Notes under the pieces: model-generated | The model's database searches: none | Told to the model about the DNA's origin: nothing | Seen by the model: only the letters and a program-made list of their open reading frames with translations | Source: a virus | DNA: 23,066 bases | Direction: 5' to 3' (one strand) | IMG/VR virus record: IMGVR_UViG_3300031565_000400 | Span: 1-23,066 of that record | Shown here: positions 2,627 to 11,755 of the stretch, in pieces | Layout: each line of letters starts with the position of its first letter | Position numbering within the stretch: position 1 is the stretch's first letter | Translations under genes and position numbers: made by a program

Positions 2627-3973
2627 TTAAATTTTCTCGCCAGCTTTGAAGCCACGAAATGCTTTGAAACGCGGGAATCGGATACTGTGGTAATCATTCC
2701 CGTCACTCTTACTAAGGGCATCGCCGCGCACTTCCGCGACCATGCCGATAAGCTTTTTCTGTGCTGCTGGCGCAAACCATTCCTCACGTTGTTTGTCGCT
2801 GTAACCACTGCCGACACTAACGCGGATCTTGACTCCGTCATCGACGCCTTCGCAAAGCAGGGCACCCATTTTACCGACATTTTTCGTACCGGCCTTGCCC
2901 TCTTCAACTTTGATTACTTTGAGGCTAACTTCGATAAACGGTTTCAGCTTTAACCAATCTACCGAACGTTTGCAGCGATACGGTGCGTCGAGGTTTTTAA
3001 TCATAATACCCTCGTACCCACCTTTAATTGCTTTGTTGTTGATCTCGGTAAATTTCTTTTGGCCTGCAGCCGTGTCCAAATCTACAATGTCATGTTCCAG
3101 TATGCGAACATTGTCACCGATTGCTAATTGAACAAAAATATGTGAATGCCATTTTTTTAGCGCCGCAGTACGATCAACCTGCTTGACCTTACTGGAGCCG
3201 GCTGTAAATTCTTTCACGGTTACCATATCAAACAAATACAGAACCGCATCCTTAGCATTGACATTAGATTTGCGATTAATTTGCGTCATCAAATCCTGGA
3301 ACGTCGCGCTCATAATTTCACCATCAAGCACCATCGGTTCTTTGAATTGTTTAATACTCTTGCTAATCTGTTCCTTGATATGTCCGAAATTATGTAGTTC
3401 TTTTCCGTTCCGGCTATACTGGATAACCTCACCAGTTGCAGGGTACACAAAAGTTAGGACGCGCACACCGTCCAGTTTGGTTTCGATCATTTTTTTACCA
3501 CTAACCTTACCTTCGTGATTTTTGCTGTCATGTGCAAGTTGGGCCTCAAACACGGGAACACCATACTCCTTCATTTTGCCCATCGCCTTAGCCATTTTGT
3601 TTACCGTGCGCTCACTCATACCACAGCGTAGGTCTTTAATAAGGATGCGTCGGTACCAGCCGTTCCATTGTTCGTTTGTAGCCAACCTCATGGCAGTATC
3701 AATCTCTGCCAAAGCAGCGTGTCCGGTAGCTTTTCTTTGGGAAAGGCGATCTGCTAAAATTTCAAACGTCGGCACAGTAAGACCAATGCCATCCTGTCCT
3801 TTGCGAACCGGAACCTTTTTAACACCGAATGTAACCATTGCATCATACGCAAGGCGCACACCGGCAAAAAATTCTTTGTTGTCTGCTTTGATTTCGCGGG
3901 TGACGATGGCTTGTTTTGCAAGCTTACTATTGTCAGCTTCGAGGTCCGCAATTACTTTCCACGGTTTATTCAT
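2627..3973 (-). CDS. ATP-dependent DNA ligase (T4/T7-type)
   Basis: 448 residues. The adenylation lysine K166 is in ETKLDGVRV (motif I, KxDG). The other motifs follow in order: SRNG (187-190), LDGEI (216-220), LFDMV (248-), EGIMIK (321-326) and WLKLK (340-344). The C-terminus fits an OB domain with GSGYSDKQR and a closing RFPRF. Residues 1-140 resemble the helical DNA-binding domain of T4 ligase. It seals nicks in DNA during replication and repair using ATP. All catalytic motifs are intact. Its GC content is visibly higher than that of neighbouring genes. It has its own promoter (4009-4037) and a TAGGAG ribosome site, and heads the operon running toward 1338. Confidence 0.95.
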   Translation of the reverse strand: MNKPWKVIADLEADNSKLAKQAIVTREIKADNKEFFAGVRLAYDAMVTFGVKKVPVRKGQDGIGLTVPTFEILADRLSQRKATGHAALAEIDTAMRLATNEQWNGWYRRILIKDLRCGMSERTVNKMAKAMGKMKEYGVPVFEAQLAHDSKNHEGKVSGKKMIETKLDGVRVLTFVYPATGEVIQYSRNGKELHNFGHIKEQISKSIKQFKEPMVLDGEIMSATFQDLMTQINRKSNVNAKDAVLYLFDMVTVKEFTAGSSKVKQVDRTAALKKWHSHIFVQLAIGDNVRILEHDIVDLDTAAGQKKFTEINNKAIKGGYEGIMIKNLDAPYRCKRSVDWLKLKPFIEVSLKVIKVEEGKAGTKNVGKMGALLCEGVDDGVKIRVSVGSGYSDKQREEWFAPAAQKKLIGMVAEVRGDALSKSDGNDYHSIRFPRFKAFRGFKAGEKI

Positions 3974-4609: not shown

Positions 4610-4648
4610 AAAAAACCCTAGTTGTTTTGTTAACAAGGCACAACTAGG
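4610..4648 (-). terminator. Terminator of the tmRNA operon
   Basis: Minus strand CCTAGTTGT, a 14-nt loop region holding the self-complementary TTGTTAACAA, then ACAACTAGG and GTTTTTT. The 9 bp outer stem is perfect. It lies just past the tmRNA coding piece. Confidence 0.85.
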
Positions 4649-4846
4649 AAATCCCCGGGTAATGGTTTTTAAGCCAACTCTGCTTCGGCAGTAACGAAAC
4701 TGGAGAGTTTAATTCCTTTTCCGCTAACTACGAAAGTACCATTTTTTGTAAATTTGTCATTTACAGTTTTTGCTCTGCTTACGGCAGTCGCCTATCGTGC
4801 TGTCCATTCAGTTACTCATTTGCCCTGTCGAAACCTTGTCATCCCC
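4649..4846 (-). other. ssrA: tmRNA coding piece
   Basis: Starts with GGGGATGACAAGGTTTCGAC, which matches the acceptor strand and D-loop of tmRNA 5' ends. Helix 2 and a small hairpin (CTGC, loop CGTAA, GCAG) follow before the tag frame. The piece probably ends between the tag stop (4669) and the terminator stem (4648). Confidence 0.85.
4669..4764 (-). other. ssrA: tmRNA-encoded proteolysis tag frame
   Basis: The most likely resume codon is GTA at 4762-4764. An A lies four bases upstream, as in E. coli, and VNDKF then aligns with the usual ANDNF-like tag start. The tag has 31 codons: VNDKFTKNGTFVVSG, then KGIKLSSFV, then TAEAELA and TAA. A GCA three codons earlier (4771-4773) is an alternative resume codon. 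The tag is long and ends ELA rather than the usual LAA or VAA. Confidence 0.7.
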
Positions 4847-4981
4847 ATCAGAAGAGCACTTACTAACTAAGTCAAATAGTTCGGCGCAAATATCTAAGCC
4901 ATAATATTCATCTAGCTTAAACATATCATAATTTCTAGAAAACCATTTATTTACCGCAACTATCTTTTCCGTATCTGTCAT
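4808..4981 (-). CDS. Possible 57-residue protein nested in the tmRNA intervening segment
   Basis: ATG at 4981 begins 12 bp after the CCA end of the acceptor piece. The frame runs through the whole spacer and ends with TGA at 4808, inside the coding piece. It reads MTDTEKIVAVNKWFSRNYDM, then FKLDEYYGLDICAELFDLVS, then a short acidic tail. Composition is protein-like, and AELFDLV recalls the LFDLLK/FDILK tails of neighbouring small proteins. No Shine-Dalgarno sequence is visible, and RNA processing of the tmRNA would cut the message. It may be real, a remnant, or chance. Confidence 0.4.
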   Translation of the reverse strand: MTDTEKIVAVNKWFSRNYDMFKLDEYYGLDICAELFDLVSKCSSDGDDKVSTGQMSN

Positions 4982-4992
4982 AAATGCTTTTT

Positions 4993-5061
4993 TGGTGGAG
5001 ATGGCGGGAGTCGAACCCGCGTCCAGAACACCTTTTACCTCACTTCATACAGCAATAGTAA
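4993..5061 (-). other. ssrA: tmRNA acceptor piece
   Basis: Holds the 3' strand of helix 2 (5024-5030), the T arm with stem GCGGG/CCCGC and loop TTCGACT (5004-5020), the acceptor strand CATCTCC and encoded ACCA ending at 4993. The 5' limit is bounded by the preceding stop codon at 5062 and is otherwise not determined. Confidence 0.85.
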
Positions 5062-5388
5062 TTATTTAGCTTTCCGTCTTTCCTCAAGCCCAATATCATG
5101 CCAAATTTTAATGAAAGTCCAACCTATAAACATAAGAGCTAATATACCGAGTAATAATCCGGCGCTAAAAAATGATAACAAAATGCTCATCATAACAACT
5201 GGAACTAATCCAACCGGATCATTGAGAAACCAAAAGAACATAAAAATGAAAGATACAGCATAACACAACCAATATACTAACCAATGATTTTGAATTTTTC
5301 CAGTTTTTATTTCGCCAGCAATTTTACGAATAGAATCTAATACAGTAGTTGTGACTCCGACCCAAAGATTTAATAGAAATTCTTTCAT
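5062..5388 (-). CDS. Small membrane protein
   Basis: 108 residues. It starts MKEFLLNLWVGVTTTVLDSI, resembling the amphipathic N-terminus of its upstream neighbours (MKFLKYLILGW, MLEFFKHLWLGF). Two long hydrophobic segments follow, about residues 38-58 and 62-95. It ends with basic residues (LEERRKAK). Last protein gene before the tmRNA and probably in the same transcript. Shares its start base with the stop of the upstream gene. Function unknown. Confidence 0.75.
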   Translation of the reverse strand: MKEFLLNLWVGVTTTVLDSIRKIAGEIKTGKIQNHWLVYWLCYAVSFIFMFFWFLNDPVGLVPVVMMSILLSFFSAGLLLGILALMFIGWTFIKIWHDIGLEERRKAK

Positions 5389-5837
5389 TAGTTTGAAACT
5401 CCTTTTATTTTTACATTTCTATGTTTTTGTTTATATAATAGCGATTTCTGATTGCGATGATGCATCATTGCCCCCAGCAGGTCCGTAGCATCATCGTCAT
5501 CTCGTTTCTCATTATCCTCTTGTTTTAATACGTTAAACATTTTTTCTTTAATTTCAATACCACGATTATTTAAAAATTTAATCCATTTAATTAATCTCAC
5601 AATGTTATTAATAATTATAAAATTTAAAATTGCGCTGAGAAGAATAGAAATTACAATAGAAAGAGAAAATATTGCCCACATTGGTGGATTCCCTGATCCT
5701 ACTGTAGAATAAAGAAATAGATTAGTAGGGATTAAAAATACAAAAAATCCGATCCACAATGCAACTGATTCTCGAAATCTGTCTAGATTGTCATTCCATT
5801 TTTCTTTAAGCGCCAACCATATGTTATACCAACTCAT
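5388..5837 (-). CDS. Membrane protein with acidic C-terminal tail
   Basis: 149 residues. An N-terminal amphipathic stretch (MSWYNIWLALKEKWNDNLDR) precedes two or three hydrophobic segments between residues 25 and 85. MFNVLKQEDNEKRDDDDATD follows, matching the ILK/VLK tail of the neighbouring family but in a longer cytoplasmic domain that ends basic. One base separates it from the upstream gene. Function unknown. Confidence 0.75.
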   Translation of the reverse strand: MSWYNIWLALKEKWNDNLDRFRESVALWIGFFVFLIPTNLFLYSTVGSGNPPMWAIFSLSIVISILLSAILNFIIINNIVRLIKWIKFLNNRGIEIKEKMFNVLKQEDNEKRDDDDATDLLGAMMHHRNQKSLLYKQKHRNVKIKGVSN

Positions 5838-5838
5838 T

Positions 5839-6063
5839 TTACATCTCCTTCAATATATCAAATTCATTTTCTGCATACGACCATGCCCACCAGTCACCTA
5901 ATAGGGCAGTATTTAATCGTCGGCAATGCCGAGTGCCCTTTCTATATATTGTTTGTAGCCAATAAATTCTATCATTTACCCGGACTGGTTTCCAAGCAAA
6001 CCATTTATGTACGCTTGATAAACGTTTTTCTTTATTCTGCCATGTTTCAGAATACCAATACAT
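5839..6063 (-). CDS. Small Trp-rich protein of the KWFxW family, copy 3
   Basis: 74 residues: MYWYSETWQNKEKRLSSVHK, then KWFAWKPVRVNDRIYWL, then AENEFDILKEM at the end. Clearly paralogous to the proteins at 376-597 and 594-941. Its tail (FDILKE) also matches the C-termini of the unrelated membrane proteins next to it, suggesting a shared docking peptide. No membrane segment. Function unknown. Confidence 0.75.
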   Translation of the reverse strand: MYWYSETWQNKEKRLSSVHKWFAWKPVRVNDRIYWLQTIYRKGTRHCRRLNTALLGDWWAWSYAENEFDILKEM

Positions 6064-6351
6064 TTAAAATTCCTCCGGCTCTGTTTTTAATATTTCAAAT
6101 AATTTAGTGTGGTATAGTTTTCTTCCATAGTAAAATGATGCTATTATTGGTTCCGACAACGAACCAATTCCCATCCCAAAAAAAACAGACGATACAATAC
6201 CATATATTGTACCATATCCAGCTACAAATGATACGGTACCGAACCCAATAGTCAAACATGCTATGAGAATAAGCCACAACGTTTGATGCGGTGAAAAATT
6301 AGTACGTCGTATATCCACCCAGCCTAACATAAAATATTTAAAAATTTTCAT
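6064..6351 (-). CDS. Membrane protein of the LGW/ILK family
   Basis: 95 residues from the ATG at 6351, chosen because MKIFKYFMLGW then aligns with MKFLKYLILGW of the next gene upstream (an ATG at 6360 is also possible). Two hydrophobic segments follow, with a basic linker, and the end is KLFEILKTEPEEF. Overlaps the upstream gene. Part of a tandem set of diverged paralogues; role unknown. Confidence 0.7.
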   Translation of the reverse strand: MKIFKYFMLGWVDIRRTNFSPHQTLWLILIACLTIGFGTVSFVAGYGTIYGIVSSVFFGMGIGSLSEPIIASFYYGRKLYHTKLFEILKTEPEEF

Positions 6352-6634
6352 GATGCTCATTCTTTAAAATATCAATCACACTATAATATTTTCGTTTTCC
6401 CGCTGAAAATAATTGAAATAGAAAAACAGTTAATAAAGTTAGCCAACATGTTAATATAAATCCATTCCCCATCATTTCAAGCCAAGAGATGCTTTTAATA
6501 AAAACAATATAAAAATATAATGAGGTATTTAATATAACGCAACATAATAATATAATAGACATCAATTGAGAATTTGAAAACGGCCCTAGATGATAATGTT
6601 TCCAACCCAAAATGAGATACTTAAGGAATTTCAT
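6338..6634 (-). CDS. Membrane protein of the LGW/ILK family
   Basis: 98 residues: amphipathic N-terminus MKFLKYLILGWKHYHLGPFS, two hydrophobic segments (about 25-47 and 57-76), basic linker AGKRKYYS, tail VIDILKNEHHENF. Same architecture as its two neighbours. Overlaps both neighbouring genes. Function unknown. Confidence 0.75.
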   Translation of the reverse strand: MKFLKYLILGWKHYHLGPFSNSQLMSIILLCCVILNTSLYFYIVFIKSISWLEMMGNGFILTCWLTLLTVFLFQLFSAGKRKYYSVIDILKNEHHENF

Positions 6635-6977
6635 TTCTATCCGGATCCTGTTTTAAAATTTCTATTATTCTAAATTCTTCTTTTTTTCCTGCGGTAATGA
6701 GGTTGTTAACTATTAATATAATTTTCTCTATCAAACCACCTATTAGAACTAATGCTAATATTGTAAGAAACCAACCCGCCGATCCTAAAAATATAGAAAA
6801 TATCACTCTTCCTGCAAGGGGGAGATTCTCAGGCATCAAATAATTAAATGCGATCATGAACATAATAGGAACGATCACAATTACTGAACCGAGCATAATA
6901 GTACTATGAGCAAAATTACTATCATCACGCATTTTAGCTTTAAATCCCAACCATAGATGTTTAAAAAATTCAAGCAT
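6621..6977 (-). CDS. Membrane protein of the LGW/ILK family
   Basis: 118 residues from the second ATG (6977), which aligns MLEFFKHLWLGF with the paralogues; the ATG at 6980 is equally possible and both follow AAGGA. Two hydrophobic segments (about 28-48 and 58-84) are followed by AGKKEEFRIIEILKQDPDRN. Overlaps the neighbours at both ends. The family looks like tandem duplication followed by strong divergence. Confidence 0.75.
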   Translation of the reverse strand: MLEFFKHLWLGFKAKMRDDSNFAHSTIMLGSVIVIVPIMFMIAFNYLMPENLPLAGRVIFSIFLGSAGWFLTILALVLIGGLIEKIILIVNNLITAGKKEEFRIIEILKQDPDRNEIP

Positions 6978-7719
6978 CATTTTTTTCCTTATATCCTGTG
7001 TTGATTGAAATCTTTTTAATTAGCCTTACGTCGTATAATGTTAAAAATCCAAGATTATTTAAATCGTCAGTACCAAACCAAGGTTTAACCCATCTACTAG
7101 TTGGTCCATTTTTTTTATAATAATTTATATCATTTTCCATCCAGAATTGATAAAGTATATCAACCTGTTTGCAATAGTTAAATATTTTAATAAGCAGGTC
7201 CGCATCGTAACGATCTTCCTTTCCTTCAATATAATATTTTGCTTTAGTTCTTGGTTTATATACTTGTCCAATACTTTCTGCCGTAAACATATTAAGTTCT
7301 GGTGGAAGGTTAAGTTCGTGTTTATGTTTTTTAGGAGCATATACTTGACTAATATAAGAACGATTGTTCGGGGTCAGTATTTTAATAAACTCTAACATAT
7401 CTTTTTCATTAGTAAACGATATTGTAAATTTACTTTCTCTGATTCTTCTTCTAAAAAAGAATTTAATACCTCGGTTTAAATATTTTGCTGCCCGATACCA
7501 AGGATGAGCCGGATCCACTTTATGATGATATTTTGGAAATACAGCTTCTACAAATTCACGGCTTCCATTTTTTTGTCTATTAAAAACAAATTCTATTAGA
7601 AATAAACAACCAGTTTTATTTGATGTTCTATATAGTCGCTGCGATACCTGTGGCAATAAAGTTAAATATTGCTCACTATTAAGACAGGTATTTTCTATTA
7701 TGTGGGTTTTACGTCGCAC
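6970..7719 (-). CDS. Hypothetical basic protein, about 249 residues
   Basis: The frame is open from 7920, but its first 67 codons lie over the DHH gene and read as shadow sequence. I place the start at GTG 7719, which overlaps the DHH stop by 11 bp. The protein then begins MRRKTHIIENTCLNSEQYLT. It is rich in basic and aromatic residues (FFRRRIRESKFTISF, YKPRTKAKYYIEGKEDRYDA) and ends in a Trp-rich region (SRWVKPWFGTDDLNNLGF). No membrane segment or known motif. The KFTISF and GTDDLNNLGFLTLYD stretches suggest a structured soluble protein. Function unknown; start uncertain. Confidence 0.65.
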   Translation of the reverse strand: MRRKTHIIENTCLNSEQYLTLLPQVSQRLYRTSNKTGCLFLIEFVFNRQKNGSREFVEAVFPKYHHKVDPAHPWYRAAKYLNRGIKFFFRRRIRESKFTISFTNEKDMLEFIKILTPNNRSYISQVYAPKKHKHELNLPPELNMFTAESIGQVYKPRTKAKYYIEGKEDRYDADLLIKIFNYCKQVDILYQFWMENDINYYKKNGPTSRWVKPWFGTDDLNNLGFLTLYDVRLIKKISINTGYKEKNDA

Positions 7720-9436: not shown

Positions 9437-11755
9437 ATGAAAACCAAAATCAGTCTAGTACAACCAAATTTTCAGCAAGGCCCGAAAGAATTAAATAGTT
9501 ATTACCTTCCATACAGCGTGGGAGTAATTTGGTCTTATGCTGCTAAATTTGAAGAGATAACAAATCAATTTGAATTGGATGTTTTAATATGGCAGCGAGA
9601 AGATTTAGATGAAACTGCTGAACGACTTGCAACTTCAGACATTGTTGGATTTAGCACTTACATATGGAATAGAAATTATAATTATGCTTTGGCGAAAAGA
9701 ATAAAAGAAAAGAATCCAGATTGTTTAATTATCCTAGGAGGTCCAGAACCTCCAATTACCAAGTTGGATATGTTTGAACACTTACCCTTTGTTGATCTAG
9801 TAGTTAAACAAGAAGGTGAGATTACATTTAAACGCATACTAGATCATTACAAAACAAAAGATTTTGAAAATATCTCAGGACTTGTTATCAACAAAAATTT
9901 AGAAGCAGTTGATACTGGTATGCCTGAACGTATAAGTGAATTAGCAGAACTTCCTAGTCCTTATACTACAGGGGTTTTTGATAAATTGGTTGCAGAGAAT
10001 CCTATTATAGAATGGAATGCTACATTAGAAACGAATAGGGGTTGTCCATTTCAATGTTTTACAGGAAATACAAAAATTATTACATCAAATTGTCCAAACA
10101 AAAAAGCAAAAAATATCCAAATTGGTGATAAACTAATTGGATTTGATGAAGAAACAAAAAAGCTTGTTGAAACTGAAGTTTTCCAAACAGTTAAATATGA
10201 TACTGATGAAATTTATATAATTAACTTTCAAGATGGTACGATTATCGAAACTACCGAAGAACATCCATTTTACGTGAATGGAGAATGGAAAGAAACTAAA
10301 AATCTTTGTATTGGTGATGAAATTTATGATATTACATATAATGGTAAGAAAATTATTTCTATTGCTATAGAAAAACGACAAGAATCAGTTTATAATTTCG
10401 AATGTTCCCCACATAAGAATTTTTTTGCAGAATATTTATTAAGTCATAATTGTACGTTCTGTGATTGGGGATCACTCACATACAGTAAAGTTAAGAAGTT
10501 TGGACTAGAAAAAATCAATGAAGAACTAGAATGGATCGGTAAGAATAAATGTGGTTTTGTTAGCATTGCTGATGCAAACTTTGGCATGTTTGTTGAGAGG
10601 GATAATTTAATTTCCGATAAGATTATTGAAGTAAAAGGCAAATATGGTTTCCCGTATACCTTCGGTGTTAATTGGGCAAAGAATCAGAAAAATGAAGTAG
10701 TCGATCTAGTAAAGAAGATTAGTAAAGCTAAATTGTTTGCGCCGGGATTAACAGTTAGTGTTCAAAGTATGGACGAAGGTGTATTAGAAAATATTAAACG
10801 TAAGAACTTAGGTATTAACAAAATCGAATCTATCTTCCAATTATGTGACTTAGCTGCAATACCTGTAGTTACAGAGCTTATCCTAGGATTACCAGGTGAG
10901 ACATTAGATACATGGCGCAATAACTTTTGGCGCTTGTTTGATGCTGGAAATCATACAGGAGTAGAAATATTTCAAGCTCAACTATTAGAGAATGCTGAGA
11001 TGAATTTGCTGCAACGTAAACTATACAAACTAAAATCTACCACAGTTTACGATTACATGAGTGGAAGTTATAACGAAGATGAAATAGCTGAGGGCGTTGA
11101 TGCAGTTATTAGCACAAGCACATTATCACTCGACAAGATGGTGGAATGCCAGGTCTTTAGTTGGTTTATTAATACATTTCACATACAAGGCCTAAGTACT
11201 TACTTAGCTAGATTTACTACAAAATATGCCAATATATCATACAAGGAATTTTATCAAACATTGTTTGACATGTTGAACGAAGATCCGTGGTTTAGAAAAG
11301 AACGAGAAACTATAGAACACTATTACAGAAAATGGATGGACGGTGGAAGAATCGATCATCCACCCATTGGTGGAATTTCTATACATGGATGGAATTTAAT
11401 ACATCGCACATTGCTTAATATACATGCTAATAATGAATATGATGTTGTATTCGGCAAACTTAAAACATTTATCTCAACTATTATTAAGGATGAGAAATTA
11501 GCAGCAGAGCTAATCGAATTCCAAGCTAGCCATATTGTGCATTATCCAATGATTAAAGAATATCCGCTTGAGAAAGAATTTACACACGATATACTAGGTT
11601 ATATACAAGATGATTCTCCAAACCTGCATAATCCTGCAAAATATGCATTCGTTTTCCCTGAGGAGAATAATATCTCATTAGCTAAGTTTTTAGAACTAAT
11701 TTATTTCGGTAGGCGCAGAGGATTCGGGAAAACTAGAATCACCAAATCTAAATAA
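9437..11755 (+). CDS. B12-binding-domain radical SAM enzyme interrupted by an intein
   Basis: 772 codons; 640 residues after removal of the intein (residues 207-338). Residues 5-150 form a B12-binding-like domain (LPYSVGVIWSYAA, DIVGFSTYIWN, IILGGPEPP, VVKQEGEIT). The [4Fe-4S] motif CxxxCxxC exists only after splicing: GCPFQ joins CTFCDWGS. Radical SAM strands follow, including SIADANFG and LILGLPGETLDTW. The C-terminal 250 residues resemble other large B12/radical SAM proteins but show no motif I can name. The enzyme should cleave S-adenosylmethionine and perhaps methylate or rearrange a substrate; which one is unknown. It starts the plus-strand late block. Confidence 0.92.
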   Translation: MKTKISLVQPNFQQGPKELNSYYLPYSVGVIWSYAAKFEEITNQFELDVLIWQREDLDETAERLATSDIVGFSTYIWNRNYNYALAKRIKEKNPDCLIILGGPEPPITKLDMFEHLPFVDLVVKQEGEITFKRILDHYKTKDFENISGLVINKNLEAVDTGMPERISELAELPSPYTTGVFDKLVAENPIIEWNATLETNRGCPFQCFTGNTKIITSNCPNKKAKNIQIGDKLIGFDEETKKLVETEVFQTVKYDTDEIYIINFQDGTIIETTEEHPFYVNGEWKETKNLCIGDEIYDITYNGKKIISIAIEKRQESVYNFECSPHKNFFAEYLLSHNCTFCDWGSLTYSKVKKFGLEKINEELEWIGKNKCGFVSIADANFGMFVERDNLISDKIIEVKGKYGFPYTFGVNWAKNQKNEVVDLVKKISKAKLFAPGLTVSVQSMDEGVLENIKRKNLGINKIESIFQLCDLAAIPVVTELILGLPGETLDTWRNNFWRLFDAGNHTGVEIFQAQLLENAEMNLLQRKLYKLKSTTVYDYMSGSYNEDEIAEGVDAVISTSTLSLDKMVECQVFSWFINTFHIQGLSTYLARFTTKYANISYKEFYQTLFDMLNEDPWFRKERETIEHYYRKWMDGGRIDHPPIGGISIHGWNLIHRTLLNIHANNEYDVVFGKLKTFISTIIKDEKLAAELIEFQASHIVHYPMIKEYPLEKEFTHDILGYIQDDSPNLHNPAKYAFVFPEENNISLAKFLELIYFGRRRGFGKTRITKSK
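10055..10450 (+). other. 132-residue mini-intein in the radical SAM gene
   Basis: Starts with Cys1 in CFTGNTKIIT (block A), has TTEEHPFYV (block B, T67 and H70), then VYNFECSPHKNFFAEYLLSHN (split: VYNFECSPHK, NFFAEYLLSHN; blocks F and G), ending His131-Asn132, with Cys as the first extein residue. All splicing residues are present. There is no homing-endonuclease domain. The insert is clearly more AT-rich than the flanking extein, suggesting later acquisition. It separates the first from the second cluster cysteine. Confidence 0.93.

Follow-up and report, generated by a model that had tools for sequence, protein, structure and literature searches.

The window analyzed here, a stretch of 23,066 bases that makes up a virus record, carries at positions 5085-4610 of its minus strand a permuted, two-piece phage tmRNA gene, the only tmRNA of that record. 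Judging from the sequences, only the tag cassette and the intervening sequence of this gene were replaced with respect to its closest relative, a tmRNA located at the same place of the viral contig L122, and the parts needed for ribosome rescue were conserved. We consider it likely that the gene encodes a two-piece rescue tmRNA whose tag and intervening block were exchanged and which would give a weaker ClpXP signal. The RNA itself is of an already known kind, an ordinary phage two-piece tmRNA; what is new is its divergent tag, apparently the product of a clean natural tag swap.

Identity of the tmRNA gene and of its tag frame

The gene was assigned to the permuted tmRNAs because two programs, ARAGORN and Rfam, agreed on it. 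ARAGORN detected one tmRNA in the window, of the permuted form, at 5085-4578 (-), and called its tag as VNDKFTKNGTFVVSGKGIKLSSFVTAEAELA. The Rfam model RF04321 (tmRNA_permuted) matched the window with 109.6 bits (E 6.5e-21; cut-off of 47 bits) and was covered over its full length (1-213). Both programs found the permuted order, with the acceptor piece located upstream of the coding piece and an intervening sequence joining them (Table 1). According to the sequence and the covariance-model alignment, the acceptor stem is closed (GGGGATG with CATCTCC) and contains the G3-U70 pair used for alanine charging, and the acceptor piece encodes its ACCA end. A conserved A is situated four bases 5' of the resume codon (GTAAAT before GAC), and the tag frame is closed by a TAA codon. 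The canonical end of ssrA tags, Ala-Ala after a hydrophobic residue (LAA type), is absent, since the window tag ends in ELA.

Table 1. Parts of the tmRNA gene of the window.
Feature	Coordinates	Strand	Basis
Acceptor (3' tRNA-like) piece: T arm, half acceptor stem CATCTCC, ACCA	4993..5063	-	RF04321 alignment; same base as L122 at 70/70 compared positions
Intervening sequence, 146 bases, expected to be excised	4847..4992	-	Form as in PMC11915505 Fig. 1
Coding piece, 5' part: GGGGATGACAAGGTTTCGACAGGGC tRNA-like half, then stretch ending one base before the resume codon	4759..4846	-	RF04321; 82/88 identical to L122
Tag frame: resume codon GAC 4758-4756, 29 codons (predicted tag DKFTKNGTFVVSGKGIKLSSFVTAEAELA), stop codon TAA 4671-4669	4669..4758	-	ARAGORN, Rfam, L122 alignment
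Perfect 7-bp A/U-rich hairpin TGTAAAT-GACAA-ATTTACA, resume codon in the loop	4747..4765	-	Predicted minimum-energy fold; sequence
Coding piece, 3' block: hairpin CCTAGTTGT-loop-ACAACTAGG, then T run; likely 3' end	4610..4657	-	6-sequence alignment; RF01850 3' hairpin fit in L122

The match of the window to RF01850 (beta_tmRNA) reached 77.8 bits, under the gathering cut-off of 84, because it is interrupted by the tag and the 3' part; the L122 tmRNA reached 97.6 bits. A beta-type 3' hairpin is nevertheless present after the window tag. In the alignment of six sequences, each of its nine pairs (9/9) is paired in all six, and six pairs carry compensatory changes on both sides; as read from this alignment, the hairpin is under selection for pairing. 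Structurally, the window gene is closest to the beta type among permuted tmRNAs. It resembles RF04321 and RF01850 in its permuted order, the tRNA-like domain, the G3-U70 pair, the UAAAU before the resume codon and the 3' hairpin, and it differs from them in its tag of 29 residues ending in ELA and in the 146 bases of its intervening sequence. Complete permuted ssrA genes are likewise found in the genomes of the OM43 phage Melnitz (PMC9004378) and of Stenotrophomonas Menderavirus, as well as in L122, where host SmpB is presumably used, as in the window. Most phage two-piece tmRNAs have been obtained from samples of marine and aquatic origin (PMC9004378).

The preliminary description of this DNA had reported a tag frame of 31 codons from GTA (4764), or 34 from GCA (4773), with the end TAEAELA and the stop codon at 4671-4669. 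Its coordinates, frame, codon counts, peptide end and stop codon were all correct, and of its account of the tag length the frame and the end stand, but the two start codons do not. Resumption at GTA or GCA, as called by ARAGORN and in that description, was rejected in favor of GAC 4758-4756 on the basis of the RF04321 and L122 alignments. The RF04321 consensus UAAaU followed by GCa is aligned to UAAAU followed by GAC in the window, the resume codon of L122 (GCA) is preceded by the same 18-base spacing as the window GAC, and a GAC resume codon after AAAU also occurs in the relatives L335, L336 and L024. These three observations make GAC 4758 the most likely resume codon, which predicts a tag of 29 residues. 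The hairpin that encloses this codon (4765-4747, minus strand) also pairs the conserved A upstream of it.

The length of the tag could by itself be due to chance, as a random frame of the same base composition would run through 29 codons without a stop with P about 0.13. The codon make-up of the tag frame falls inside the range of the genes of this phage, and none of the stop-free windows, either shifted (0/192) or antisense (0/1023), scored as high in total. This signal came from the amino-acid composition, which gave P about 0.001 when compared with random stop-free codons, and not from the synonymous choice (P 0.08). Such a protein-like frame, known from one sequence in a single metagenome contig, would fit either a captured gene piece or selection on the peptide.

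The ends of the intervening sequence of the window can pair (GCATTT with AAGTGC), and relatives show comparable end pairing. An ORF of 57 codons (4981-4808, minus strand) begins in the intervening sequence, which contains the larger part of it, and reaches the tRNA-like domain. This ORF is also protein-like in composition, although more weakly than the tag frame (P about 0.003 in total), and could represent either a captured piece of a gene or a product of chance. No significant match to a phage-protein source was obtained for the tag or for this ORF in phages or in the loci collected here.

Comparison with the closest relative and with other tmRNAs

L122 is a viral contig of 43.5 kb that is syntenic with the window around the tmRNA and whose DNA ligase is 90% identical to that of the window. 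Its tmRNA has the ordinary tag ANDSAYFEDLRLAA. The structural blocks of both genes are nearly identical, with 70/70 matching bases in the acceptor piece, 82/88 in the 5' part of the coding piece and 45/48 in the 3' hairpin block, where the differences include a compensatory pair change. The flanking protein-coding DNA shows about 79% identity, with a divergence of 0 to 30% depending on the block. By contrast, the stretch from the resume codon to the 3' hairpin (window, 101 bases; L122, 52 bases) has no detectable homology, and local alignments of the tag segments were no better than those of shuffled sequences (P 0.67 and 0.94). We also considered that the window tag might be what remains of the tag of L122 after a frameshift, which was rejected since no alignment exceeded chance. 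The intervening sequences differ as well (146 bases in the window, 79 in L122), and their ends can pair in both. Since the structural blocks are almost the same while the tag stretches lack homology, the tag cassette appears to have been swapped. No relatives beyond L122 were obtained in searches that started from the 3' tail, from the acceptor piece or from the downstream protein.

The acceptor piece of L122 (end at about 4860) encodes CCACCG instead of CCACCA, so that the host would need to complete its CCA end. Upstream of the window tmRNA, similar small proteins, probably membrane-spanning, are encoded in tandem (5062-6980, minus strand), and a similar run occurs in L122 (3057-4791). Elsewhere on the window, a B12-binding radical SAM protein (9437-11755, plus strand) is split by a mini-intein (HINT/intein domains, residues about 206-331) that sits within the CxxxCxxC cluster motif (CPFQ, intein, CTFC). 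At the contig edge, 23062-22199 (-) encodes a substrate-binding protein of TRAP transporters, of the DctP family (Pfam E 5e-49); the phage may have acquired this gene from a host.

Nine viral loci with the same 5' domain were detected in addition to L122. ARAGORN called tags in 8/9 of them, all of 13-15 residues with an LAA end and representing four distinct tags; in the ninth locus, L338, the aligned frame, as read from the sequence, is ANDNFYNEEYALAA. The window tag is hence unusual for its own kin. The preliminary description had regarded long tags and ends other than AA as exceptional, a view that was not supported, as both turn up among viral and bacterial tmRNAs. Tags of at least 20 residues were found in 12/76 distinct viral and 8/84 distinct bacterial tags (Fisher P 0.24), and tags that do not end in AA in 10/76 and 14/84, respectively (Fisher P 0.66), as counted with one search pattern and one program (ARAGORN), some frames being probably miscalled. 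The proposal that viral tags exceed bacterial ones in length, or in the frequency of ends other than AA, was therefore discarded, given that this same-pattern control gave no significant difference. All viral outliers put through Rfam were above the tmRNA cut-off. Among isolated phages, tag ends other than AA occur in G (QVA), Rey (VGA) and X1 (RYA). In the tmRNA database, the commonest tag length is 10 residues, and 79 phage tmRNAs have been counted (PMC11915505).

Unlike the window tag, those of L122, Menderavirus Marzo, DLP_6, QDWS359 and Rb1 are ordinary and end in AA. Long tags in permuted tmRNAs, as in the window, are present in the Tunturiibacter phage Tunturi_4 (33 aa) and in L024 (31 aa), which also shares the GAC resume codon; both tags are unrelated to that of the window in sequence and end in AA. 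The standard tmRNA of L037 has a tag of 27 aa ending in ELALA, a Leu-Ala end like that of the window within an unrelated sequence. The mycobacteriophage DS6A tmRNA (PMC4131195; PMC11915505) is, as that of the window, altered in its mRNA part. However, it has no tag, consisting of the tRNA-like domain only, and a similar molecule inhibits tmRNA, whereas the window gene keeps an open tag frame and a stop codon.

One viral contig, L038, contains a GOLLD RNA together with a standard tmRNA with a tag of 24 residues, AVELSTMTFEDAMAFVGADYAVAA (2810-3221, 5794-6173). The tag of L039, of 26 residues, is similar to it, which suggests that some long viral tags are conserved. In L214 (Tunturi_4; 418-1270), the gene next to the permuted tmRNA carries the annotation RF-1 domain peptide chain release factor, and its product may be a second factor for ribosome rescue, of the ArfB type.

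Proposed function and alternative explanations

According to the explanation that we favor, a single precursor would be transcribed and its intervening sequence removed, after which the acceptor piece would pair with the coding piece. The host alanyl-tRNA synthetase would charge this two-piece tmRNA and host SmpB would deliver it, so that ribosomes stalled on broken mRNA would be rescued by the phage tmRNA during infection. Ribosome rescue with both host factors is the economical reading; no SmpB gene was found in the window, in the 43.5 kb of L122 (both of them fragments) or in the related records searched. Between the resume codon and the 3' hairpin, a longer and unrelated block of protein-like coding sequence would have taken the place of the former tag stretch; the intervening sequence would also have been exchanged, with every rescue part retained. 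Tagged chains would thus gain a tail of 29 residues ending in E-L-A, a weaker ClpXP signal than LAA, although another protease, e.g., Lon or ClpAP, might still recognize it. A point against this explanation is the predicted hairpin around the resume codon, which might hinder resumption; a base-paired region at the resume site of E. coli tmRNA has been suggested to impair it (PMC2481249).

The earlier suggestion that a changed end could alter degradation is in line with data from E. coli, where the KM for ClpXP rises when either of the two final Ala residues of the tag is changed (PMC7652416), so that the loss of the penultimate Ala should weaken recognition. Because the terminal Ala and its carboxylate are kept and the penultimate Ala is changed to Leu, recognition would be weakened rather than abolished: by analogy, ClpX should most likely read the window tag poorly, but perhaps not ignore it. 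In addition, the AND...Y/F stretch of the relatives' tags is absent from the window tag; in the E. coli tag, AANDENY is the part that binds SspB (PMC8512704). The bacterium Mesoplasma florum provides a case of a protease-specific tag, which its own Lon reads and which for the most part evades the proteases of E. coli (PMC9097571).

Overlapping with the favored explanation, and differing from it solely in that the peptide would have no function, is the possibility that the phage needs ribosome release only, its tag having drifted or been overwritten and the 29-residue frame being whatever stays open. We hold this to be conceivable though doubtful. The two parts free of constraint, tag and intervening sequence, were exchanged so far that no homology is left, while the structural parts were kept, the open run is within reach of chance, and the template of the E. 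coli tag can be altered with little effect on rescue (PMC2481249), all of which agrees with such decay. The protein-like amino-acid make-up of the frame argues against it, although a captured gene fragment could explain this feature, as does the Leu-Ala end after Ala-Glu-Ala-Glu, which resembles the ends of long viral tags (VEAEAIAA, KQELALA). The same make-up would also agree with a tag swapped under selection, so that, as the preliminary description had suggested, stalled chains would be protected or redirected: they would be released and either spared from ClpXP or sent to another protease or to a different fate serving the phage. The divergence from the LAA ends of all near relatives, with conserved rescue parts, and the M. 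florum precedent point in the same direction. Such protection is unlikely, however, since it would rely on one sequence, the Leu and C-terminal Ala that remain make the loss of the signal unclear, ends other than AA are common among tmRNAs generally, and a changed tag is equally expected if the tag is simply unconstrained.

A misassembly or chimera could also have put foreign DNA inside a tmRNA whose true tag is similar to that of L122. The single metagenome contig, with an outlier stretch between nearly identical blocks, would be compatible with such an artifact, and an exact 17-base search over the tag start found no other tmRNA. Yet the junctions coincide with functional borders, the aligned resume codon is followed by an open frame, and the varying divergence of the flanking blocks rules out a simple mosaic of L122, which makes this origin very improbable.

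The tag swap described here bears on the question of why phages carry tmRNAs. Under the explanation that we favor, as under its alternative without a function for the peptide, the window and L122 constitute a natural pair, that is, nearly the same tmRNA with tag and intervening sequence swapped, and this pair would allow a direct test of whether phages need the tag or ribosome release alone.
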